Below, in pieces: positions 1,667-37,016 of a stretch of DNA of 64,000 bases. Every line of letters begins with the position of its first letter. The first letter of the stretch is position 1. The stretch lies in NCBI RefSeq assembly GCF_003314435.2, contig NZ_QNVY02000004.1, positions 248,001 through 312,000 of the forward strand, written 5' to 3'. The stretch comes from Flavobacterium petrolei (GTDB lineage: Bacteria; Bacteroidota; Bacteroidia; Flavobacteriales; Flavobacteriaceae). A model generated the notes under the pieces. It saw only the letters and a program-made list of their open reading frames with translations. It did no database searches and was not told where the DNA came from. The position numbers and the translations under genes were made by a program.

Positions 1667-3058
1667 TTATGCTATTACCGGATTGCCTTCATTCACCCAT
1701 TCATTCATTCCTGGGGAATAATTTAAAACATTCGTATACCCATTTTTTATTAATAGGGAATAACCAATTGAAGCTCTATCACCGCCTTGGCAATGGATTA
1801 CAACTTTTTTGTCTTTACTTATTTTATCTAAATTATTTACCATAGTCCCTACAAAAACATTGTCTGCTCCTTCTATATGACCGGCATTAAATTCAGCAAC
1901 GCCACGAAGGTCTATGATCTGAACATTTGGATCCCCTTTTAATGCTTTTAGTTCTTCAAGAGAAATGAAATGGGATTGATCCAAATTCCCGGTATAAGTC
2001 TCGGTAGAAGGGATGTAGCCATAAATGTTATCAAGGCCAATTCGCATTAATTTTCTGGTGAGATCATCTAATTGGGACTCAGGAGCAAGTATCATAAAAG
2101 GTTCCTCGTAAGTTAAAAACCATCCTGCCCAAGTGGCAAAAGAATTATTACCTTGAATGTTGATGCTTCCCGGTATAAATCCTTTTGAAAATTCAGATTT
2201 GTCTCTGGCGTCAATCAATTTGATTCCTTTTGCTAATGCTTCTGTTAATTCTATTTGATTTAACTTTCTTAATTTAGGAACCGCTGTCAAAAGTGGACGA
2301 TCAACTTTATTTAAGTGCTTCATCATCGCAAAATATTTTGGTGGTTCGGGCTGATCCGTCAATAAATATTTTACAAAACCTTTTTCATCATGCTTGTATT
2401 GAAATGCCCAATTTCTCACTTTCTCGTATCCCACTGTTGTGCTTGGAACTGATCCTAAAGATTTGCCACAAGCAGAGCCCGCACCGTGCCCAGGCCATAC
2501 TTGAATGAAATCTGGAAGTTTATTAAATTTTTGTACAGATTGGTACATTTGTAAAGCACCAGCATCAGCTGTACCAACAACACCAGCAGCTTTCTCTAGT
2601 AAATCTGGTCTTCCAATATCACCCACAAATACAAAATCCCCTGTGAAAAGCATTACTGGCTCATCGCTCGCAGGAGTATCTGTAAGAAGGAAACTGATAC
2701 TTTCAGGAGTATGTCCCGGTGTATGTACAACTTCTAATATAAGATTTCCAAGTTTTATTTTTTGACCATCTTTTAATCCAATATGAGGGAATTCATATTC
2801 CCAACCTTCTCCACCTTCATCTGAAAGATACATATCTGCTCCAGTTAAAGCGGCTAATTCTCTTGATCCTGCAAGAAAATCTGCATGAATGTGTGTTTCA
2901 AGAATGTGAGTAATTTTCATGTTATTTTGCTTTGCAATTTCGAGGTAGGTATCTACATCTCTTTTTGCATCAATTACAGCTGCTACTCCTGCTTTTTGAC
3001 AGCCAATAAAATAACTGGCTTGTGCTAAACTTTTATCGTAAACGTGTTGAAAAAACAT
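1667..3058 (-). CDS. MBL-fold/rhodanese fusion, persulfide dioxygenase-like, copy 2
   Basis: 463 residues with the same three-domain layout as the gene downstream but clearly divergent from it. The metal motif is THIHADFLAGS, so the last position of the HxHxDxxxxH signature is Ser instead of His. HTPGH, TGDFVFVGD and WPGHGAGSACG are present. The C-terminal rhodanese loop is HCQGGDRAS with Cys423. First gene of the operon; its Crp-type operator and -7 box lie at 3094-3138. It probably also acts on persulfides, but it has diverged enough from copies 1 and 3 to suggest a different substrate or partner. Confidence 0.88.
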   Translation of the reverse strand: MFFQHVYDKSLAQASYFIGCQKAGVAAVIDAKRDVDTYLEIAKQNNMKITHILETHIHADFLAGSRELAALTGADMYLSDEGGEGWEYEFPHIGLKDGQKIKLGNLILEVVHTPGHTPESISFLLTDTPASDEPVMLFTGDFVFVGDIGRPDLLEKAAGVVGTADAGALQMYQSVQKFNKLPDFIQVWPGHGAGSACGKSLGSVPSTTVGYEKVRNWAFQYKHDEKGFVKYLLTDQPEPPKYFAMMKHLNKVDRPLLTAVPKLRKLNQIELTEALAKGIKLIDARDKSEFSKGFIPGSINIQGNNSFATWAGWFLTYEEPFMILAPESQLDDLTRKLMRIGLDNIYGYIPSTETYTGNLDQSHFISLEELKALKGDPNVQIIDLRGVAEFNAGHIEGADNVFVGTMVNNLDKISKDKKVVIHCQGGDRASIGYSLLIKNGYTNVLNYSPGMNEWVNEGNPVIA

Positions 3059-3093
3059 ATCTTTTATTTTTAGATTAATTACTAATTAGGAAC

Positions 3094-3138
3094 CAAAATT
3101 ACGTATTGCATTTATTAAAAACTGTGACATAAGTTACA
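3094..3138 (-). promoter_or_regulatory. Crp/Fnr-type operator plus -7 box for the MBL-rhodanese operon
   Basis: Palindrome TGTGACATAAGTTACA at 3123-3138, and on the minus strand a -7 box TAATTTTG at 3094-3101 matching the Bacteroidota consensus TAnnTTTG. Centre-to-centre distance is 33 bp, as in seven other promoters of this window. Translation starts 36 bp below the -7 box. Confidence 0.8.
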
Positions 3139-3152
3139 CAAGCTTTTTATAA

Positions 3153-3815
3153 CTATAATTGTATTATTTTACCAGTATGAACATCGTAGCGCATGGATAC
3201 AATTTTTGGATGCTTCTCTTTTACAATAGGATTTTGTTTGATTAAATTTGTTGAATGTGCAATGTTAGCATTTATTGATCCTAATAAATTTTTATCCTTC
3301 GGCATTTTTTTTTCTTCTTCTTGTTCTTCTTGTTCCTGAGCAAGAGTTTCTACAATATCATCAATGTGACTTAAATGTTTTTTATATAAATTATCTTTAT
3401 CAGCTATATAGGCTTTAATGGCACCACATTCTGTATGACCCAAAACAACAATTAATTTTACATCAAGATGTTCTACGGCATACTCAATACTTCCCATGTC
3501 AATATCTGAAATTAAGTTTCCTGCATTTCTAATGACAAACAAATCACCTAATCCTTGGTCAAATAATACTTCAGGAGAAACCCTGCTGTCAGAACAAGTA
3601 AGCACTACAGCAAAAGGATGTTGTTCATTTTGGTTTTTTAGCACTGTTTTTTTGTCTTGATGCGGATGAATAGATTTTTCGTTTATAAAACGTTGATTTC
3701 CAGAAATTAGTTGTTCTATTGGTTCTTGGTTTTCAGCAATCGGGTTTGCTATTTCTTCTTTCTTGCAACCTATTGTAATACTTAAAATTGCAATTGCTAG
3801 GATTGTTTTTCTCAT
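3153..3815 (-). CDS. Beta-class carbonic anhydrase, lipoprotein
   Basis: 220 residues. The N-terminus is a lipoprotein signal (LSITIGC, lipidated Cys17), so the enzyme should be anchored in the cell envelope facing the periplasm. Zinc and catalytic residues of beta-carbonic anhydrases are visible: CSDSR (Cys74, Asp76, Arg78) and HTECGA (His127, Cys130). It interconverts CO2 and bicarbonate. An acidic linker rich in Glu/Gln (about residues 155-170) separates the core from the C-terminus. It has its own Crp-type promoter (3836-3880) and sits between two persulfide dioxygenase-like genes, so it is likely co-regulated with sulfide metabolism. The link between carbonic anhydrase and sulfide is inference. 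Confidence 0.92.
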   Translation of the reverse strand: MRKTILAIAILSITIGCKKEEIANPIAENQEPIEQLISGNQRFINEKSIHPHQDKKTVLKNQNEQHPFAVVLTCSDSRVSPEVLFDQGLGDLFVIRNAGNLISDIDMGSIEYAVEHLDVKLIVVLGHTECGAIKAYIADKDNLYKKHLSHIDDIVETLAQEQEEQEEEKKMPKDKNLLGSINANIAHSTNLIKQNPIVKEKHPKIVSMRYDVHTGKIIQL

Positions 3816-3835
3816 TTTACTTTCTAATATTTCTT

Positions 3836-3880
3836 CAAAAGTAGCTTGTGAATTTTGTATTTATTGTAACTTATATCACA
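3836..3880 (-). promoter_or_regulatory. Crp/Fnr-type operator plus -7 box for carbonic anhydrase
   Basis: Operator TGTAACTTATATCACA at 3865-3880; minus-strand -7 box TACTTTTG at 3836-3843, a perfect TAnnTTTG. Spacing between centres is exactly 33 bp. Confidence 0.8.
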
Positions 3881-3884
3881 TAGC

Positions 3885-3919
3885 AAAAAAAGAGATTGCC
3901 TTTTTTAGACAATCTCTTT
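3885..3919 (-). terminator. Rho-independent terminator after MBL-rhodanese copy 3
   Basis: On the minus strand, arms AAAGAGATTG and CAATCTCTTT form a 10-bp stem followed by a T-run. It lies just below the stop of the gene ending at 3942. Confidence 0.8.
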
Positions 3920-3941
3920 ATAATAAAAAACAATGAATTAT

Positions 3942-5357
3942 TTACAACAGCGTTGTTGGACAAACATAGTCTGATTTTAGAAGATTGGTGTTTTTGATTT
4001 CGGCAAATCCACCAATAACGTCAACAAAGTTATCCCATCCGCGTTGTTTTAAAATTGAGGCAGCAATCATACTACGATATCCACCGGCACAATGCAAAAT
4101 AAATTTTTTCTCTTTTGGAAATTCTGCCAAGTGATTGTTGATTTCGTTTAAGGGAACATTAATTGCTCCGATAAGATGTTCCGATAAAAATTCGCTTTTC
4201 TTTCTGACATCAAAAATTAGTGTTGCATCAAAATCAATAGTGTCTTCCAGTTGTTTGGCCGTAATTCTGTTTACGGTATCCAATTCAAAACCTGCCTTTT
4301 TCCAAGCAGTAATTCCACCGTTCAAGTAGCCAATAGTATGATCGTACCCAATACGCGAAAGGCGTACCATACTTTCTTCTTCCTTACCAATTTCAGTAAC
4401 TAATAAGATTTCTTGTTTGATATCAGCAATCATTTCTCCCACCCACATCGCAAAACTTCCGTCTAAACCAATGTTAATACTGTTCGGAATAAATCCTTTA
4501 GCAAATTCAGATGCGTCACGTGTATCCAATACTAAAGCTCTGGTTTCATTGGCCACTACTTCAAATTCGGTTGGATTTAAAGGTGTTTTCGCTTTTTTTA
4601 GTATTGCATCTAAACTGTCATAGCCATTAATATTCAGTAACACATTGGCTGGAAAATAGGCAGGAGGATTCGTTAATCCGGTCAAAACAGCGGTAACAAA
4701 CTCATCTTCGGTCATCTTTGGGTTCAAGGCGTAATTGGTTTTCTTTTGGTTGCCCAAAGTATCGGTAGTTTCTTTACTCATCATTTTCCCGCAAGCCGAA
4801 CCCGCACCGTGATTTGGATATACAATTAAATCATCTGACAAAGGCATAATTTTAGTTCGCAAAGAATGATACAAATGACGCGCTAATTTGTCTTGAGTTA
4901 AATCAGCCACAACATGTTGCGCTAAATCTGGACGACCAACATCACCAATAAACAAAGTGTCGCCGGTTATAATTCCGTGTTCTTTTCCGTTTTCATCAAT
5001 CAGTAGAAACGTAGTACTTTCCATGGTGTGTCCCGGTGTATGAATCACTTTTACTTTATAGTTTCCAATTTCAAAAATCTGTCCATCTACAGCAGAAATA
5101 ATTTCATACGCTGGTTTAGCCGTTGGTCCGTATACGATTTTCGCATTCGTTTTATTTGCTAAATCCAAATGTCCTGAAACGAAATCAGCGTGAAAATGAG
5201 TCAAAAATACATATTTGATTTTGGCGTTGTCTTTAAATGCTCTATCAATATACGGTTGTACTTCGCGTAAAGGATCAAAAATGGCGACTTCTCCATTATT
5301 TTCAATATAATAAGCTGCGTGTGCAATACATCCGGTATAAATTTGTTCGATTTTCAT
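3942..5357 (-). CDS. MBL-fold/rhodanese fusion, persulfide dioxygenase-like, copy 3
   Basis: 471 residues, same length and layout as copy 1 and much closer to it than to copy 2. The metal motif is THFHADFVSGH, followed by HTPGH, TGDTLFIGD and YPNHGAGSACG; the last rhodanese has HCAGGYRS with Cys423, and the middle rhodanese lacks a catalytic cysteine. Predicted cytosolic persulfide dioxygenase/sulfurtransferase. Monocistronic: it has its own operator (5483-5498) and a terminator below the stop. Three such fusions within 5 kb suggest recent duplication of copies 1 and 3. Confidence 0.9.
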   Translation of the reverse strand: MKIEQIYTGCIAHAAYYIENNGEVAIFDPLREVQPYIDRAFKDNAKIKYVFLTHFHADFVSGHLDLANKTNAKIVYGPTAKPAYEIISAVDGQIFEIGNYKVKVIHTPGHTMESTTFLLIDENGKEHGIITGDTLFIGDVGRPDLAQHVVADLTQDKLARHLYHSLRTKIMPLSDDLIVYPNHGAGSACGKMMSKETTDTLGNQKKTNYALNPKMTEDEFVTAVLTGLTNPPAYFPANVLLNINGYDSLDAILKKAKTPLNPTEFEVVANETRALVLDTRDASEFAKGFIPNSINIGLDGSFAMWVGEMIADIKQEILLVTEIGKEEESMVRLSRIGYDHTIGYLNGGITAWKKAGFELDTVNRITAKQLEDTIDFDATLIFDVRKKSEFLSEHLIGAINVPLNEINNHLAEFPKEKKFILHCAGGYRSMIAASILKQRGWDNFVDVIGGFAEIKNTNLLKSDYVCPTTLL

Positions 5358-29850: not shown

Positions 29851-29861
29851 GTTATAGGGCG
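29851..29861. repeat. Cassette-end box of cassette 5
   Basis: GTTATAGGGCG on the plus strand. Its sequence matches 10 of 11 bases of the reverse complement of the box at 30466-30476 (TGCCCTATAAC), which marks the start of the same cassette. This pairing is the R''/R' relation of integron cassettes. Confidence 0.65.
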
Positions 29862-30062
29862 TTTTTTTATTTATTTAGATTGTCAATTTACACTTTCAAT
29901 AAAAAATTCGCTTTTTAGTATGTTTTTATATTTTTTTGCTTTACGAACTTTTATTTTTTGGATTTTATAAAGTATTTTTTCAATTAACGTTTCTCAAAAT
30001 TTCAGTCTTCAAGTTTCTACTTTTCAGATTACAATTTTCAATATAAATCGCTGTTTAATATT

Positions 30063-30416
30063 TTATTCGCGAAATTTAGACGTTGACATATGTTTTACAA
30101 TTTCTTTGATTTCTTCAGTAATCAGTCCTCTTAGGTTCTCAATTGCTGTGTTTTTTTCAGCTACAGGAACAGTTTGTATTTCTTCTTCAAAATCGTTTAA
30201 TGCTTCATTTCCAATTTTAATTAATTCATCAGATAACATTACAAGTGTTTGCTTCATTGCTTCTAATTTATTTTGTAAGTTGGCAAAAACATCATTACTT
30301 TTTTGAGGTTGAATACTATTATAGATGCTTTGAGATTTATCTAATAACTGCTTTTTTATCTCGCTATTGAAAAGTGCGTTGACACGAATGTCTAAACTAT
30401 TTTCTAAATTATTCAT
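30063..30416 (-). CDS. Helical protein of unknown function (cassette 5)
   Basis: 117 residues, almost entirely predicted helical with coiled-coil character (for example LQNKLEAMKQTLVMLSDEL) and an acidic stretch NDFEEEIQ. No signal peptide and no known motif. It is the sole gene between the cassette boxes at 30476 and 29851, so it is cargo of an integron-type cassette. Typical of such cassettes, it has no recognised relatives that I could name. Confidence 0.6.
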   Translation of the reverse strand: MNNLENSLDIRVNALFNSEIKKQLLDKSQSIYNSIQPQKSNDVFANLQNKLEAMKQTLVMLSDELIKIGNEALNDFEEEIQTVPVAEKNTAIENLRGLITEEIKEIVKHMSTSKFRE

Positions 30417-30465
30417 TTTCTAAATTGTTAAATTATATTTTTTTCGATCGTTGTCTTTTTTAAAA

Positions 30466-30598
30466 TGCCCTATAACGTTATGCCATTTTGAGCTAGCTGG
30501 AATTTAGTGAAATTATAGTTTCACATCGCGTTTTCGTTAAGCCGAAAATTGAGCGGTTACGAACTTCCAGCTAGCTCAAAATGGCGGTTAGCTGACGT
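30466..30598. repeat. attC-like palindromic element A
   Basis: A 133-bp imperfect palindrome between cassettes 4 and 5. Outer boxes TGCCCTATAAC (30466-30476) and GTTAGCTGACGT (30587-30598), then long arms CCATTTTGAGCTAGCTGGAA and its exact complement. The centre carries a loop shared (in the minus-strand reading) with elements B and C: GTTCGTAACC, TTTTCGGCTTAAC, GAAAC. It starts 5 bp below the stop codon of the gene ending at 30603, the place where integron attC sites lie. Confidence 0.75.
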
Positions 30599-30602
30599 AT
30601 TT

Positions 30603-32648
30603 TTACACTGCTTTTCTAAGCTGAGCACTTACTTTTTCGTCAATTAAATTCGGATATTCATTTTCAAATTTTTCTTTTACTGATTTATCTTTAATTGATA
30701 ATTGATTATGTAAATAGCCTAATTTTCTTTTATTTAACTCAATAAGTTCAGACCAAGTCATTACATAAACCTCAATGTTTTTTTCAGTTTTTCGGTCATA
30801 TAAAAATGGATTATCTTTATAGTTTTCCCTCTGAGATTTTACTTTTGATTTTGCATAACTATTTAATTTAGATGAAATTAATAAAAGTTTATACTTCACT
30901 TTATCACTTGGTAATGCTGAATTTTCTTCAATAGTGAATGCATAACGATCAATTTGATTAAGCTCTTTTTGACCTATAGAGCATTTTGGTGATTTTAATT
31001 CAACGACCATAATTTCACGAGTATCGTTATCAGTTATTCTTTCATTGTAGAAAAATAGGTCTGTAATATCGTCCATATTACCTTCTGTCTCAATTAAATT
31101 GTCGTCATTTTTTGACGGTATATAATTGAAATATTTATTTCTTAATTCATTTAGGATGTTTCCAATTTTTTTATCTGACCATAAATGTGGTGATCCATTA
31201 TAATTTTCACCAAATAACCATAATTCATTTTCAACAATTTTATGTAATTGGCTTCTTTCTTTTAAATGTTTAGATATTTCACCATATACTAGCTCGTGTA
31301 AGAAGTTTAAAAACTCTAATTTTTCAGAAACTTGACTTGCAAAATGAATAACATCTTCTAAATCTGTTTTTTGAAGAAGTGAATTAAATTTTTCTAAATT
31401 CTCTTCGGATAATTTTAGAATTTTTTTAAATATGTATTCGATATTACCATTACTAATAGCTTTATCTAATAGAGGATATAGAAAATTTCTAATTTTTTCA
31501 TCTTTTTGAATTAAATGATGTTCATCTTCAAGTATATATGCTATTTTTTTAAAAACAACTTCTTGAGAAGTTGAAGCTGGTTTATTATCTAAATAAGGAT
31601 AGAATTTATCTTTTTCTAAGCTAGCGACAAATTTTTCAAATCTTTTATTTCTTGCTTTAAAAAAATCATTGATAGATTCTTTAACAGTATTTTTTAAGTT
31701 TTTAATTTCTTCTTCACCAAGTGATTCGATATCTAAATTTCTAAATAGATCAATGTCAAAAAAATCTGATTCAACATATATAAACCAAGTTCCTAAATCG
31801 GTTGTGTACCAATCGGAAGAATAGGTGTATTCATAAGCGACCGATTTAACTCCATCATTCTCAGTTTGAAAGAAAACTTTAACTTTATTAATTTGTGATT
31901 TTATATTGTAAAAATAAAAATTGATGTCGTGGTCTTTTCCGTTTTTATCAGTATAAGGAACGTTTTTAAATATAGGTTGTCCAATGACGAAATCGGATTT
32001 TGATAATTTGTGGTCGTTTACAAAAAAACTTATTTTATCATTAAAAATTTCATAGGGATAATTTTCAAAAAGACTTTGAGTTATGTTTTCACTTAAAAAG
32101 TCAGTAGCTATCTTATTTTTATTAAAAACTTTTGGTTGAGTATTATGATGAAAATTTTCAATTTCTACTTTGTAATAAGTATCTAGTTTTTTTTCTTCAA
32201 AATACTGAAAATCAATTTTTAAATCGGTTTTCTCAAGTTCAATATCTTTTAAATCGGTTGTATCTATTCCAAAAAGTGTTTTGCTGAATTTTTTTTCCTT
32301 TTCATCATATGCTACAGTTTCAATTTTCATTAACTCTCCAATTTGAAAAGAGCTAAATCTTCCAATACCTTGTCCTTTTTCTTTAACATTTGTACCAATT
32401 TGTAAAATTTTGGTTTTAAATTCTGAAAAAGGGACACCATATCCATCGTCAACAATTGATATTTTTTCAATACCTGATTTAACGGTAATAGAATTATTGT
32501 AGACAATCTCAATTTTTATATTTTTTGCCTTAGCTTGGATTGAGTTATTTATTAATTCCTTAAAGGCTTTAAAAGTATCACCGTATTTTGTTAGATGACT
32601 TTTAATGACTCTCGAGTTTGTCGTTAGTTTTTCTGTAATTGATTTCAT
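30603..32648 (-). CDS. GHKL-type ATPase with C-terminal PD-(D/E)XK-like nuclease domain (cassette 4)
   Basis: 681 residues. The N-terminal part has the Bergerat ATP-binding motifs of the Hsp90/MutL/histidine kinase fold: FKELINNSIQAKA (N box, about 29-41), IVDDGYGVP (G1, about 65-73) and KGQGIGRFS (G2, about 91-99). A long helical middle leads to a C-terminal region with NELWLFGENYNG, DDITDLFFYNE and MVVELKSPK, which fits a PD-(D/E)XK/DUF4263 (Shedu-like) nuclease core. ATPase-nuclease proteins of this kind are often anti-phage effectors; the role here is inferred. It is the only gene of its cassette (boxes at 32681-32691 and 30587-30598). Confidence 0.75.
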   Translation of the reverse strand: MKSITEKLTTNSRVIKSHLTKYGDTFKAFKELINNSIQAKAKNIKIEIVYNNSITVKSGIEKISIVDDGYGVPFSEFKTKILQIGTNVKEKGQGIGRFSSFQIGELMKIETVAYDEKEKKFSKTLFGIDTTDLKDIELEKTDLKIDFQYFEEKKLDTYYKVEIENFHHNTQPKVFNKNKIATDFLSENITQSLFENYPYEIFNDKISFFVNDHKLSKSDFVIGQPIFKNVPYTDKNGKDHDINFYFYNIKSQINKVKVFFQTENDGVKSVAYEYTYSSDWYTTDLGTWFIYVESDFFDIDLFRNLDIESLGEEEIKNLKNTVKESINDFFKARNKRFEKFVASLEKDKFYPYLDNKPASTSQEVVFKKIAYILEDEHHLIQKDEKIRNFLYPLLDKAISNGNIEYIFKKILKLSEENLEKFNSLLQKTDLEDVIHFASQVSEKLEFLNFLHELVYGEISKHLKERSQLHKIVENELWLFGENYNGSPHLWSDKKIGNILNELRNKYFNYIPSKNDDNLIETEGNMDDITDLFFYNERITDNDTREIMVVELKSPKCSIGQKELNQIDRYAFTIEENSALPSDKVKYKLLLISSKLNSYAKSKVKSQRENYKDNPFLYDRKTEKNIEVYVMTWSELIELNKRKLGYLHNQLSIKDKSVKEKFENEYPNLIDEKVSAQLRKAV

Positions 32649-32680
32649 AAATTATTGATTTCTCTCATTTTTTGGTAATA

Positions 32681-32691
32681 TGTCAGCTAAC
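32681..32691. repeat. Cassette-start box of cassette 4
   Basis: TGTCAGCTAAC on the plus strand (GTTAGCTGACA on the coding strand). It matches the reverse complement of the cassette's end box GTTAGCTGACGT (30587-30598) over ten bases. Confidence 0.7.
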
Positions 32692-33396: not shown

Positions 33397-33457
33397 GTTC
33401 AACCGGAGTTTCATTGTTCGTGCTGCGCACGCAACGAATCTCTAGCTGTTATGCCCA
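33397..33457. repeat. Short attC-like element following cassette 3
   Basis: A 61-bp imperfect hairpin bounded by GTTCAAC (33397-33403; GTTGAAC on the coding strand, a perfect GTTRRRY) and GTTATGCCCA (33448-33457). Inner arms pair GAGTTTC...GTTCGTGC with GCACGCAACGAATCTC. It differs from elements A-C in length and loop but ends with the exact complement of the start box of the cassette (34079-34088). Confidence 0.6.
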
Positions 33458-33469
33458 GTTTTTTTTTAA

Positions 33470-33510
33470 GACCCTGTTTAAATTCTAATAACTAAAATTT
33501 AAACAGGGTC
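33470..33510. repeat. Perfect 15-bp inverted repeat
   Basis: GACCCTGTTTAAATT (33470-33484) and AATTTAAACAGGGTC (33496-33510) with an 11-nt loop, 31 bp below the stop of the cassette 3 gene. No T-run follows the stem on the coding strand, so it is not a classic terminator although it could stop or stabilise the transcript. Confidence 0.7.
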
Positions 33511-33541
33511 AAAATATAATAAAAATAAAATTTTGAATTCT

Positions 33542-34006
33542 TTATTTTCTGATTGAAGAAAAATACCAATCTCCTATAGCTTTATCAGATAAACTTGAAT
33601 CAAGAAGAAGTTTCCATTTGTTAGACCAATCAATCCATTTTGATTTACGTTCGTCAAAATCTAGCATAAAAGTGTCATAAGTCCCAAAACTTTTACCTTC
33701 ACTTTCCAAATCATCATTTATTTTCTTATTTATTTCACGTGCTTTTTCCCAACCTTCTTCACTATCTCTACTATCCATTGTAAAATTAAATAATGATTTC
33801 AAAAAGAATGTTCGTTTTATTACTTCTTTTGGTTTCAGGTTCGTCTCTTTCAAATAATCTCTGAAAAGCTCAATCTGTTTCTCTTTATCAAATTCTAATT
33901 CTATTGTCTCATCAGTATGGAAATGCGAGGTCATTGGTACAAAATCATATTTAATTTTGAGGTCTTGTGCATCAAACCATTCTAAAATTTTTTCTAAAGG
34001 TGTCAT
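33542..34006 (-). CDS. Unknown protein (cassette 3)
   Basis: 154 residues, soluble, mixed alpha-helical, rich in charged and aromatic residues (EGWEKAREINKKIN, SKWIDWSNKWKLLL). No signal peptide and no motif recognised. Bounded by TGGGCATAAC (34079-34088) and its exact complement GTTATGCCCA (33448-33457), so it is the single gene of an integron-type cassette. Confidence 0.65.
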   Translation of the reverse strand: MTPLEKILEWFDAQDLKIKYDFVPMTSHFHTDETIELEFDKEKQIELFRDYLKETNLKPKEVIKRTFFLKSLFNFTMDSRDSEEGWEKAREINKKINDDLESEGKSFGTYDTFMLDFDERKSKWIDWSNKWKLLLDSSLSDKAIGDWYFSSIRK

Positions 34007-34078
34007 AGTTTTTTTTTTGTTTTTTTGTATTATTTTTTAACAATTTTTAATTGTAAGTATCCATTTCTGCGGTAAAAT

Positions 34079-34208
34079 TGGGCATAACGTTATTCTGCTT
34101 TGAGATGGCTGGAAGTTCGTAACCACTCAGTTTTCGGCTTAACCGAAACTTGATGCGAAACGATAATTCGACTAAACTCCAGCTAGCTCAAAATGGCTTT
34201 TGGCAGAT
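34079..34208. repeat. attC-like palindromic element B
   Basis: About 130 bp between cassettes 2 and 3. Left box TGGGCATAAC, right box TTTTGGCAGATG. Arms TTTGAGATGGCTGGA and TCCAGCTAGCTCAAA pair with few mismatches. Loop: GTTCGTAACC, TTTTCGGCTTAACCGAAA, TTGATGCGAAACGATAATTC. The loop is nearly identical to element C, although the arms differ. Confidence 0.75.
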
Positions 34209-34212
34209 GTAT

Positions 34213-35234
34213 TTATTTTTTCGTCCAATTTATAAACTCATTCATAACTTCTTTCCAATGTTCTTTTTCGTAATTTGCTCTTCCATTATCATTAACTTCA
34301 AAAAAGTTATGTTCTAAATTTAAGTATCTTTTATATGTTAAATTATCCTTTGCGTTTTGGATATAAAATAAAGGAACTAAATCACATAAATCAGAAGCAA
34401 TATCATTTGTACCATAAGCTAAATAAGTAGGTATTTTGATTTGTAACCAATCATTTAATAATGGTCTTGAGAAAGATTTCCAAGCTAATAAATTTGGATT
34501 TTCTTTTAAAGTTTCTTTATTATAAGCTTCTCTATACATTTGATATGTGTTTTCGATATATTCATTAGCTTTTTCCCAAGTGATTTCTTTTCTTTCGGCT
34601 TCCTTTCTATAGTTTCTAATGTTTTGGTCAATTCTTCCAAATGGGTTTGCACCAAATAATCCCAAATGTGTAACTTTCTTGTTGTTTAAAGCAATAAGTG
34701 TTGCAACTTTAGAACCTTGAGAATGTCCAGCAACTACTAATTTTGAATTATCTACCCATTTCTGTCTTCGCAAAAAATTTAAAACTTTCTCTGCTCTATA
34801 TTCATAATTCTCTAAAAAATCTGCTTTTACATATTCCTTATCAAATTCATCGGGTTTTCTACATTTGGAATATAGCAATAAGATTTATTTAAGTTTTTTT
34901 CATTAACAATTACAGGAGTTTTCGGCATTGAAATGACAATTAAATGATAGTTCTTTTTTATTTCATTTATTTCGAAATTTGTTATTCCACCGCCAATCAT
35001 CCATATATTTTCTTTTGCTGGTTTTACGAATAATGGCATTGGCAAAGAACCTTGACAAAATAAAAAAATAGGTTTTATTTCGTCTAAATTAGTATCGATT
35101 AATACAAAATTGATAGTATCCTTTTCTTTTTTGATACTGAATTGAATAGCTTGATTATTTATTATATTTAGTTTCTGTCCAAAACTTATTTGGATTAAAA
35201 GCAATAAAAATAATGTCGTTTGTAGTTTTTTCAT
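34213..35234 (-). pseudogene. Secreted alpha/beta hydrolase split by a frameshift (cassette 2)
   Basis: Two overlapping frames make one hydrolase of about 340 residues. The upstream part (from 35234) has a signal peptide ending SFGQ and the first strands (PIFLFCQGSLPMPLF). The downstream part carries the nucleophile elbow AGHSQGSKVA, the acid region YGTNDIA and a late His (NLEHNFF). Reading joins at a run of four T on the plus strand (34855-34858); one more base there restores PNVEKPDEFDKEYVKAD. Real mutation and sequencing error are both possible. Cassette boxes: 35243-35249 and 34198-34205 (TGCCAA core). Confidence 0.75.
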
Positions 35235-35242
35235 AATATATA

Positions 35243-35370
35243 TGCCAACGTCCCCGCTGCTTTGAGATGGTGTGTGGTTCGTAACCTTTCAATTTTCGGC
35301 TTTGCAGAAAATTGATGCGAAACGATAATTCCACCAAATTACACACTAGCTCAAAACAGCTGTTGTGCGT
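35243..35370. repeat. attC-like palindromic element C
   Basis: 128 bp between cassettes 1 and 2. Left box TGCCAAC, right box GTTGTGCGT. Arms TTTGAGATGGTGTGTGG and TTACACACTAGCTCAAA: relative to element B, GCTGGA has become GTGTGT on one arm with matching change on the other, so the stem has been kept by compensatory change. The loop (GTTCGTAACC, TTTTCGGCTT, GATGCGAAACGATAATTC) is almost the same as in B. Confidence 0.78.
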
Positions 35371-35381
35371 TCGTTTTTTAT

Positions 35382-36542
35382 TTACGATTGTTTTAAAAGT
35401 TCATCTAAAACTCTTTTGCCATTTTCATTTCCTGGGTTTAGTTCAACAGATTTTTTATACATTTTAATTGCTTCTTCTCTTTTATTAATTTTCAATAGTA
35501 TGGCTCCATAACTATCGTAAGCATTTCCGCTTGTAGGATTTAATAATACGTTTAGTTTGAAAGTTTCTAAAGCTTTTTCATTTTCGTTCTTGTTTAAATA
35601 TTCATAACCTAAATTATTTAGGTTGTCTTCCGAATGTATGTAGGCACTATTTTCTTTCTTGACATTGTTTAATGAACTAATTGCATAATTTAGCGTACGT
35701 TCATAAACTTCCGTTTTCTGTTTTTTATCTAGTGTTTCGGCATAACTTTTCGCTATTGTTGTTATAACTAAAGTTGGATTATCAAACCAAATTCCGTGAC
35801 CACATTCAAATGCGGTAATACCGATACTTTTTGGATGACTGGCAACAAAGTTTTTATGACATTCTTTCCAATGTTCTACTTTTTCAGTTTCTTTAAAAGA
35901 TGGAATTCCACTAACTAAATCTACAACTGGAATATTTTGTGGAATTGAAATTTCACTCATCATTTTTACAGTTTCACGTATATTTGTAGCCATATAATAT
36001 ATAGCAAGTTTGTTTTTTTTCCACTCTGGAATAAGCAGTTCTTGCTTTTTTAAATCGCTTTCTACAAACTTTTCCATAAAATTATGGTTTACATCTATTA
36101 ATACAATCGATTTTACAAGATTTGGATTCCTTACTGAATATAAAGTTGAAAAGTAACCGCCAAAAGAATGAGAAACTAACATAATTTGTTTGTTGTAGCC
36201 CAATTTTTTTAATCCAGTTTCTAAATCCACAAGGCTATTTAACATATTGTGTTTTGAGTCTTCAGTTTCTAAAGTATTCATAGTGCTTTTACCTAAACCT
36301 TCTCTATCATATGTTATTATTGTTGCTCCAGTTAAATCTGCAATTGGTTGCAGAATAGAATTCCAAACTCTTCCAGCACTTCCAGCACCAGCTTCAAAAA
36401 GAATTGGAATTCCTGAACCTTTTATAATGTTGAAATGTAGTTTATGATTTCCTACATCCACTAAAGTATCAATTGTTTGAGACTGACTTTTTATTGAACT
36501 AAAAAGTATAAAAAAGATAATAACTTTTAAGAATAATTTCAT
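35382..36542 (-). CDS. Secreted alpha/beta hydrolase with C-terminal TPR repeats (cassette 1)
   Basis: 386 residues: signal peptide (to about residue 21), an alpha/beta hydrolase domain with oxyanion-side FEAGAGSAGRVW, TYDREGLGKS and nucleophile VSHSFGGYFS, and a C-terminal pair of TPRs (NEKALETFKLNVLLNPTSGN and KREEAIKMYKKSVELNPGN). Likely a periplasmic esterase or related hydrolase. The unit is flanked by GACGCACAAC (36595-36604) and its complement GTTGTGCGT (35362-35370), making it the first cassette of the array. Confidence 0.85.
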   Translation of the reverse strand: MKLFLKVIIFFILFSSIKSQSQTIDTLVDVGNHKLHFNIIKGSGIPILFEAGAGSAGRVWNSILQPIADLTGATIITYDREGLGKSTMNTLETEDSKHNMLNSLVDLETGLKKLGYNKQIMLVSHSFGGYFSTLYSVRNPNLVKSIVLIDVNHNFMEKFVESDLKKQELLIPEWKKNKLAIYYMATNIRETVKMMSEISIPQNIPVVDLVSGIPSFKETEKVEHWKECHKNFVASHPKSIGITAFECGHGIWFDNPTLVITTIAKSYAETLDKKQKTEVYERTLNYAISSLNNVKKENSAYIHSEDNLNNLGYEYLNKNENEKALETFKLNVLLNPTSGNAYDSYGAILLKINKREEAIKMYKKSVELNPGNENGKRVLDELLKQS

Positions 36543-37016
36543 TTTAAAATTTTAAGTTTTTGTTTTTTCGTTTTTCGGTTAGTTTTGGTAAAATGACGCA
36601 CAACTAGTAGATGGGTCTGATAAAATCACACCTATCACCCTAAATTTAGAGAGATAGGTCTGACTACGGTCAGACTTTGTTTCAGATCAAATGTATAAAT
36701 ATTTTTTTACAAATCATCAAATGGACTTTTTATCTGCTGAATACTTTTCGTACTTACATAAGTATAAATTTAAGTTATTTTACTACTATTATGACCCGGT
36801 AATTCTTGTATATATGTTTGAACTGAGCTTAGTATATACAACCTTTTTGGTTAAATTACTGAAAGTTCATTTCGATAATTTATATTCAATAACTAACGTA
36901 CAAAACCCTTTCTAAAATTCTTTACGGTTTTCCAAATAGGCAATAAAAAAAATGCCTAAGCATCTTTTTATTTTATTTTTTTATCCGTTATTGTTCTCTA
37001 TCAGTGTTTACTTATT
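36543..37016. other. Region upstream of the cassette array
   Basis: Contains the first cassette box (36595-36604), where the flank is CAACTAG, not CAACG as at the other junctions; this may be the original insertion site. Two hairpins follow: ACCTATC/GATAGGT (36631-36659) and GTCTGAC-TACG-GTCAGAC (36658-36675). A further hairpin AGGCA/TGCCT (36938-36957) is followed by a T-rich stretch. No integrase gene is present. Confidence 0.5.

Follow-up and report, generated by a model that had tools for sequence, protein, structure and literature searches.

Cassette arrays in Flavobacterium and its relatives appear to belong to a widespread kind of integron that uses a recombinase other than IntI

Cassette array and recombinase relict in the window

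In the stretch of 64,000 nucleotides from Flavobacterium petrolei analysed here (contig NZ_QNVY02000004.1, positions 248,001 to 312,000; hereafter designated the window, the first letter of which is position 1), five units read on the minus strand form an array from 36.8 to 29.8 kb, preceded by a relict of a recombinase gene and an attI-like region. By reading, every unit starts with GTT followed by a short sequence and ends with the complement of that sequence followed by AAC. Three elements, A, B, and C, described as attC-like in a previous reading of the DNA letters alone (the sequence-only reading), were all located in the window; units 1, 2, and 4 end in C, B, and A, respectively. Their attC-like identity is supported by the sequence, and very probably they are attC sites at the 3′ ends of gene cassettes in a decayed integron, the cassettes of which would be moved by a recombinase other than IntI. 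The features are as follows.

36710..36814, minus strand: recombinase relict, the last 35 codons with one in-frame stop
36604..36709, minus strand: attI-like region, two inverted repeats followed by CTACTA^GTT, with the layout and place found at the intact locus L024
35250..36604, minus strand: cassette 1, start GTTGTGCG, end CGCACAAC at 35362-35369, then attC C
35382-36542, minus strand: gene of cassette 1, alpha/beta hydrolase with TPR
35244-35369, plus strand (core as previously read): attC C of cassette 1, from sequence and fold
34089..35249, minus strand: cassette 2, start GTTGGCA, end TGCCAA, then attC B
34213-34878 and 34827-35234, minus strand: gene of cassette 2, hydrolase-like, split in two frames
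34080-34206, plus strand: attC B of cassette 2, R″ core AAA instead of AAC
33448..34088, minus strand: cassette 3, start GTTATGCCC, gene 33542-34006, end GGGCATAAC at 33448-33456
30477..32691, minus strand: cassette 4, start GTTAGCTGAC, end GTCAGCTAAC, then attC A
30603-32648, minus strand: gene of cassette 4, HATPase with a weak HSDR_N match
30467-30596, minus strand: attC A of cassette 4, unlike B and C in that the core follows the gene strand and the arms pair perfectly over about 20 bp
29851..30476, minus strand: cassette 5, start GTTATAGGGC, gene 30063-30416, end GCCCTATAAC at 29851-29860, attC unrecognisable

The relict matched the recombinase with 88.6% identity in tblastn (E 3e-13) and with 90% identity in DNA over 119 nt, and no further recombinase pieces were found in the window beyond it. 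Because the recombinase is reduced to this stop-containing relict, the array in the window would be dead or reliant on another copy; the split gene of cassette 2 and the altered R″ of element B are further signs of decay. The DNA after the end of cassette 3 is not an attC of the A–C type. This end (33448-33370) seemingly carries another attC type, the start of which resembles a site in Algoriphagus (L166).

Folding and covariation of the attC-like elements

The sequence GTTCGTAACC is identical in A, B, and C, and GATGCGAAACGATAATTC is exact in B and C; as A deviates from the latter at 3 of 18 bases, the earlier wording that the three elements share a central sequence was slightly too strong. 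A search of the window for GATGCGAAACGATAATTC with up to 3 mismatches gave 4 matches, three of them the elements themselves, against 0.06 expected; with up to 2 mismatches, the conserved motif occurred 12 times in the own genome, and its reversal gave 0 matches. As previously read, A and B have the arms GCTGGA/TCCAGC, and C has GTGTGT/ACACAC. On the previously read strand, folding surpassed that of dinucleotide shuffles in all three, with z values of -4.9 (C), -4.1 (B), and -7.8 (A).

It had also been proposed that pairing is kept by matched changes on both sides and that folding is under selection, and this was borne out in a larger alignment of 51 sites from 11 genomes (12 own sites and 39 from 10 genomes of the same genus, excluding the truncated site L286), in which four compensating arm types occur (GGCTGGA/TCCAGC, GTGTGT/ACACAC, GTGGGGA/ACCCCAC, and TTGTGGA/TCCACAA). 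Cells changed on both sides numbered 95, compared with 34.6 ± 8.3 when whole arms were shuffled across all sites and with 64.6 ± 6.7 when they were shuffled within genomes, the observed count being reached by 0/1000 shuffles in either case. When the partner was slid by 1–2 positions, standard pairs fell from 886 to 315–518 of 1071. Less striking is how many pairs show a double change at all (16), a figure reached by 6/1000 whole-arm and 95/1000 within-genome shuffles; moreover, because few arm types underlie the counts, the independent events are few. Together, folding, alignment, and covariation point to a conserved hairpin under selection, as in the attC of integrons.

The strand as modelled was stabler by more than 0.5 kcal/mol in 35 of the 51 sites, which are not independent of one another, and the reverse was found in 5. 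In the arrays L294 and L307 and in the scorable own sites except A (L014 had no open reading frame in reach, and L013 had one on either strand), the strand modelled was the one opposite to the genes; element A is among the five reversed sites, and its stabler strand is again the non-gene strand. This asymmetry lends partial support to the earlier proposal that the site may be recombined as a folded single strand. An attempt to derive the strand choice from G–T wobbles in the arms was dropped (GT 80 and AC 100 cells).

A strongly conserved apex had been regarded as unusual for attC and as a hint of a binding protein. Mean pairwise identity was 0.85 in the loop, 0.78 in the arms (perhaps slightly low, as the automatic alignment contains a misplaced gap), and 0.51 in the flanks, so that the loop is just modestly above the arms and lends the proposal no support. 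In addition, attC starts are quite different at recombinase loci of other Bacteroidota, and chromosomal integrons tend toward sequence-conserved attC, according to a section of PMC8618304. The loop is better read as a mark of lineage than as a protein site, although a protein may still bind it. Recent copying of one element, named earlier as an explanation that would undo the proposal, does not account for the loop, which is common to sites of 11 genomes with differing flanks and may have spread through cassette transfer between species. The conserved mismatches (C-A in 46/51 sites and A-G in 33/51) could weigh more than the loop. In two alignment rows (L009b and G205f), the 5′ arm is of one type and the 3′ arm of another, with broken pairing; these chimeric sites suggest an exchange of attC halves.

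Cassette ends, attI, and intact recombinase loci

Of 61 genomes of the genus, counting the own one, 43 contained matches (E ≤ 0.001) to a covariance model built from the 12 own sites, and in 14 array stretches and the window the model gave 86 matches. Among these, 77 were kept; the nine removed were element A together with the match on the strand opposite to it, four further duplicates of this opposite-strand kind, a single partial match, and two low-scoring matches from among the weakest (L298:736 and L303:3701). In units between consecutive sites, the six bases after GTT were fully complementary to the six before AAC in 46 of 59 cases and at five or more positions in 53, whereas full complementarity was found in 2/77 controls across the two ends of one attC and in 3.5% when the ends were dealt anew. 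The 46 full matches comprise 34 different end sequences, some cassettes being duplicated, and the decayed site B scores 5 of 6. Such complementary ends would be expected if each unit closes into a circle, and from no other process considered; cassettes with an attC and with ends complementary through a circular form are what an integron carries. On contig C1 of genome G243, 27 attC matches lie on one strand at about 203-233 kb (L294, L295), resembling a large chromosomal array.

No IntI above the TIGR02249 cut-off was found in the own genome, which contains two intact members of the Bacteroidota recombinase family, each followed by an attI and a cassette; the own recombinase shares 94% identity with its F. 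caseinilyticum counterpart. At L024 (G000:C18), TACTA^GTTAGGCAC lies 102 nt past the stop of a gene for a 347-aa tyrosine recombinase; behind it come a cassette of two genes and an attC of the A–C type. The recombinase beside a site on contig C19 (L025), with 33% identity and followed by a transposase-like gene, was set aside as presumably IS91-linked.

We collected 121 recombinase loci, including the own two (some genomes are possibly in both collections), and used for the end test the 89 with at least 1 kb downstream. Complementary ends of at least 9 nt occurred directly downstream in 71/89 loci, against 14.9% of 1780 locus swaps, and because swaps also match, a few of the 71 would be chance matches. 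With a 1.4-kb limit, such ends were found in 42/76 loci against 0/11 downstream of XerC/XerD. Furthermore, among 2977 directed collinear alignments from 78 loci, preselected for a 9-nt match, 2815 stopped before attI and are uninformative, 145 stopped at -10 to +15 of G^TT, 17 at 16-100 past it, and 0 beyond. An attI adjoining the recombinase gene, with insertion at G^TT, as in integrons, is thus indicated at 71/89 loci and in the window at 36604.

Exchange of a cassette as a unit, which is likewise expected of integrons, was found in one complete case. About 1.44 kb is common to F. denitrificans (L117) and genome G228 (L212) at 90.6% identity with unrelated flanks; this cassette starts with GTTAGTGGC and ends with CGTT, both ends lying at G^TT. 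At 72% identity, the recombinase DNA of G228 marks it as a separate species; G228 also holds a second, shorter match to the cassette. A cassette gene common to L074 and L078 was not counted, as the match runs into the attC.

Complementary ends, the placement of attI, the exact-ended shared cassette, the loss of homology at attI, and arm covariation are properties of the sequences as they stand, and from them we infer joining by the Bacteroidota recombinase on a single-stranded substrate. In this mechanism, a family recombinase lacking the IntI-specific insertion would excise cassettes as circles and insert them, by way of the folded non-gene strand of their attC, at an attI directly 3′ of the recombinase's own gene, with joining at G^TT; the cassettes would presumably be read through from the recombinase side.

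Recombinase family, alternative explanations, and resistance-gene cassettes

In a phmmer alignment of the family recombinase to IntI4 (2A3V), the match splits, with IntI4 residues 186-245 opposite 18 residues. Over the 61 rows of an alignment with IntI and XerC/D, the distance from KDR to HxLRH is 60-61 residues in 39/39 family rows, compared with 102 in 11/11 IntI and 65-69 in XerC/D; the additional domain of IntI, an insertion of about 41 residues, is absent in 39/39. In the tree of the 61 rows, IntI and the Bacteroidota family stand on one side against XerC/D (support 100/99.9), and the branch that divides the family itself from the rest has only 84/87. After addition of two XerA and the IS91-linked recombinase, the latter joins IntI and the family (100/97), which lies beside IntI, outside the IntI rows; the order relative to the IS91-linked recombinase could go either way (approximately unbiased, AU, test p 0.23). 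The best NCBIfam match is NF040815 (211.5 bits, just below the cut-off of 220).

For the N-terminal 56 residues, AlphaFold predicts bbabba with moderate confidence (pLDDT 82.8 and 70.5; pTM 0.51 and 0.53), and a GARW..VWHLP motif there is suggestive of the HARP domain (SMARCAL1). These residues weakly resemble HARP 4o66, which ranked third in a profile search (E 0.42) and first and second, again weakly, in Foldseek (E 0.6 and 0.77). In VIA-align, 4o66 was not among the matches listed, which are unrelated folds, and Pfam HARP had no match in 9 proteins. A HARP-like N-terminal domain is therefore only suggestive.

At a threshold of E ≤ 1e-60, the recombinase family was found in 102/199 genomes of the taxonomic family and 130/295 of the class (taken as Bacteroidia from the organism), although carriage of the gene is no proof of an array. 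Full-length relatives are also present on two Chryseobacterium plasmids.

Several observations weigh against a decayed integron served by this family. Cassettes 3 and 5 of the window have no recognisable attC. Six of the 59 cassettes fail the end test (four of these units are spaced by at least 1.8 kb and may hide an undetected site), and 11/89 recombinase loci have no match of at least 8 nt. The alignments that stop at attI are a small part of a preselected set, and the long array of G243 contains only a 34% recombinase relative inside the 38 kb examined. Downstream matches of 9 nt also occur at 4/11 canonical IntI loci of the phylum, as would be expected of integrons, and because of this the complementary-end signature is not peculiar to the Bacteroidota recombinase. 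Finally, the recombinase scores 197.5 bits against the TIGR02249 cut-off of 265 and lacks the domain described in a section of PMC9668308 as necessary for integron-mediated recombination, where the IntI insertion is also called a defining characteristic of IntI; for these reasons, another enzyme could do the joining.

The most obvious such enzyme would be a canonical IntI acting from elsewhere on true cassettes, the Bacteroidota recombinase being a bystander. IntI is indeed above the cut-off in 84/296 genomes of the phylum, and blaVEB is found in a class 1 integron as well as next to a recombinase relative, by which IntI1 contexts evidently accept such cassettes. However, only one of the 85 genomes with a match belongs to the class of the window, a count within the class gave IntI in 1/295 genomes against the 130 with the Bacteroidota family, and attI lies repeatedly, across loci, at the 3′ end of the gene of the latter; we therefore consider this explanation improbable.

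Still less probable, and to a similar degree, are two explanations that dispense with cassettes. Dispersed palindromic repeats, similar to miniature inverted-repeat transposable elements (MITE) or repetitive extragenic palindromes (REP) and spread by a transposase, would fit the dispersed copies in the own genome and the transposase-like genes near the L025 site and in L024 (their nature being presumed from sequence). Such a repeat, however, would not make the ends of the intervening gene unit mutually complementary, nor would it move a gene and one repeat together with both ends at GTT, as in L117/L212, and the cassette look would have to be accidental. If the elements instead acted as RNA, for example as terminators or mRNA stabilisers, with folding selected for that, their position between co-directional genes and their good folding on the gene strand would be explained; yet the other strand folds better in 35/51 sites, no Rfam match was found in the window at gathering scores, and the cassette ends are left unexplained. 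Elements A, B, and C are thus best taken as attC sites of an integron with a non-IntI recombinase.

Resistance genes provide further candidates for cassettes of this kind. Relatives with 49-51% identity over part of the recombinase's length lie directly before tet(X3) (TpnF; pHH1107 and pJAT2044) and blaVEB-3 on plasmids. In these loci (L389, L390, and L391; hosts, Gammaproteobacteria and an uncultured one), the relatives are annotated with 612-666 nt, and an attI-like G^TT lies between them and tet(X3) or blaVEB-3. On a Bacteroides xylanisolvens plasmid, tet(X2) starts with GTTATGTGCC and ends with GGCACATAAC, followed by an attC-like hairpin. The tandem on this locus (L392, NZ_CP072214.1), which resembles a Bacteroidota cassette array, is as follows, each unit having 10-nt complementary ends.

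838-1748: aadS
1867-3320: ere(D)
3501-4708: tet(X2)

The three complementary-end pairs compare with 0.64 in shuffles, 9/300 of which reach three; this count alone is modest, and the stronger point is the fit of the pairs to three successive genes with inverted-repeat arms, seen by eye, between them. Homology between tet(X3) and tet(X2) begins at the G^TT of the tet(X2) cassette, and that between blaVEB-3 and blaVEB-1 of a class 1 integron begins at GTTAGCGG, one chance base aside; in the class 1 integron, blaVEB-1 ends with TACCGCTAAC, the complement of its own start. No complementary end was found at either tet(X3) or blaVEB-3, the 3′ parts of which are changed or cut. The ends of aadS, ere(D), tet(X2), and blaVEB-1 suggest an origin of several resistance genes as such cassettes.

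A wider reading, to which as a whole we give about even chances, is that, alongside IntI, another lineage of recombinases drives integrons throughout Bacteroidia, having replaced the IntI insertion or never had it, that it reads the folded attC perhaps with a HARP-like N-terminus, and that its cassette pool is the source of tet(X), aadS, ere(D), and blaVEB for plasmids, class 1 integrons, and Gammaproteobacteria. If so, the IntI insertion would not be essential for integron-type recombination, and, with 130/295 genomes of the class carrying the recombinase, a major route of gene exchange would have been overlooked there.

Riemerella, a member of Flavobacteriales, offers a comparable case. In a section of PMC13148043, aph(3′)-IVb is described as travelling with a 27-bp 5′ untranslated region and an attC-like 140-bp 3′ untranslated region and as integrating without homology; the authors themselves liken the 3′ fold to attC, while no recombinase is named there and the mechanism is described as incompletely elucidated. 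This homology-free uptake of resistance genes could gain a testable kind of enzyme.

Among known systems, sedentary chromosomal integrons, found in Vibrio and others, are the closest for comparison. The Bacteroidota system differs from them in a recombinase without the IntI insertion and with another N-terminal domain, in a recombinase gene co-directional with the cassettes and with attI at its 3′ end, and in cassette ends commonly complementary over 9-10 nt, unlike the classic R box of 7 nt. It resembles them in the tyrosine recombinase, the adjacent attI, the attC hairpin of each cassette, and cassette functions that are often unknown, as well as in attC conserved within a lineage and arrays without a nearby integrase (in part from a section of PMC8618304). 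With IntI (TIGR02249; IntI4), the recombinase shares the group apart from XerA and XerC/D and differs in the KDR–HxLRH spacing and the score given above. The name of NF040815 (recomb_XerA_Arch, "site-specific tyrosine recombinase/integron integrase"), borne by a Chryseobacterium plasmid copy, already hints at integrons, but a name alone describes no arrays. The family could belong to an integron-like subgroup of tyrosine recombinases in which the insertion is not fully conserved (PMC8138268), no cassettes, attI, or attC being described for insertion-less members in the section concerned. As far as the relevant sections of earlier reports go, an early paper found that the Bacteroidetes/Chlorobi group has intI (PMC2426708), another names Bacteroidota, without further particulars, as one of the phyla that have integrons (PMC8618304), and a large survey with IntI profiles records a single complete Bacteroidetes integron, in Salinibacter (PMC9024848). 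In titles and abstract starts of open-licence PMC papers, no integrons of such a recombinase were found described in Bacteroidia, the search not having covered tet(X), aadS, ere(D), or blaVEB cassettes.

In L025:2551-5374, the genes of a putative defence pair (PADLOC PDC-M62A/B) begin directly behind an attC in a cassette-like manner; the first cassette of L024 matches PDC-S42, and matches to PD-T7-4 and PDC-S18 occur in other arrays.
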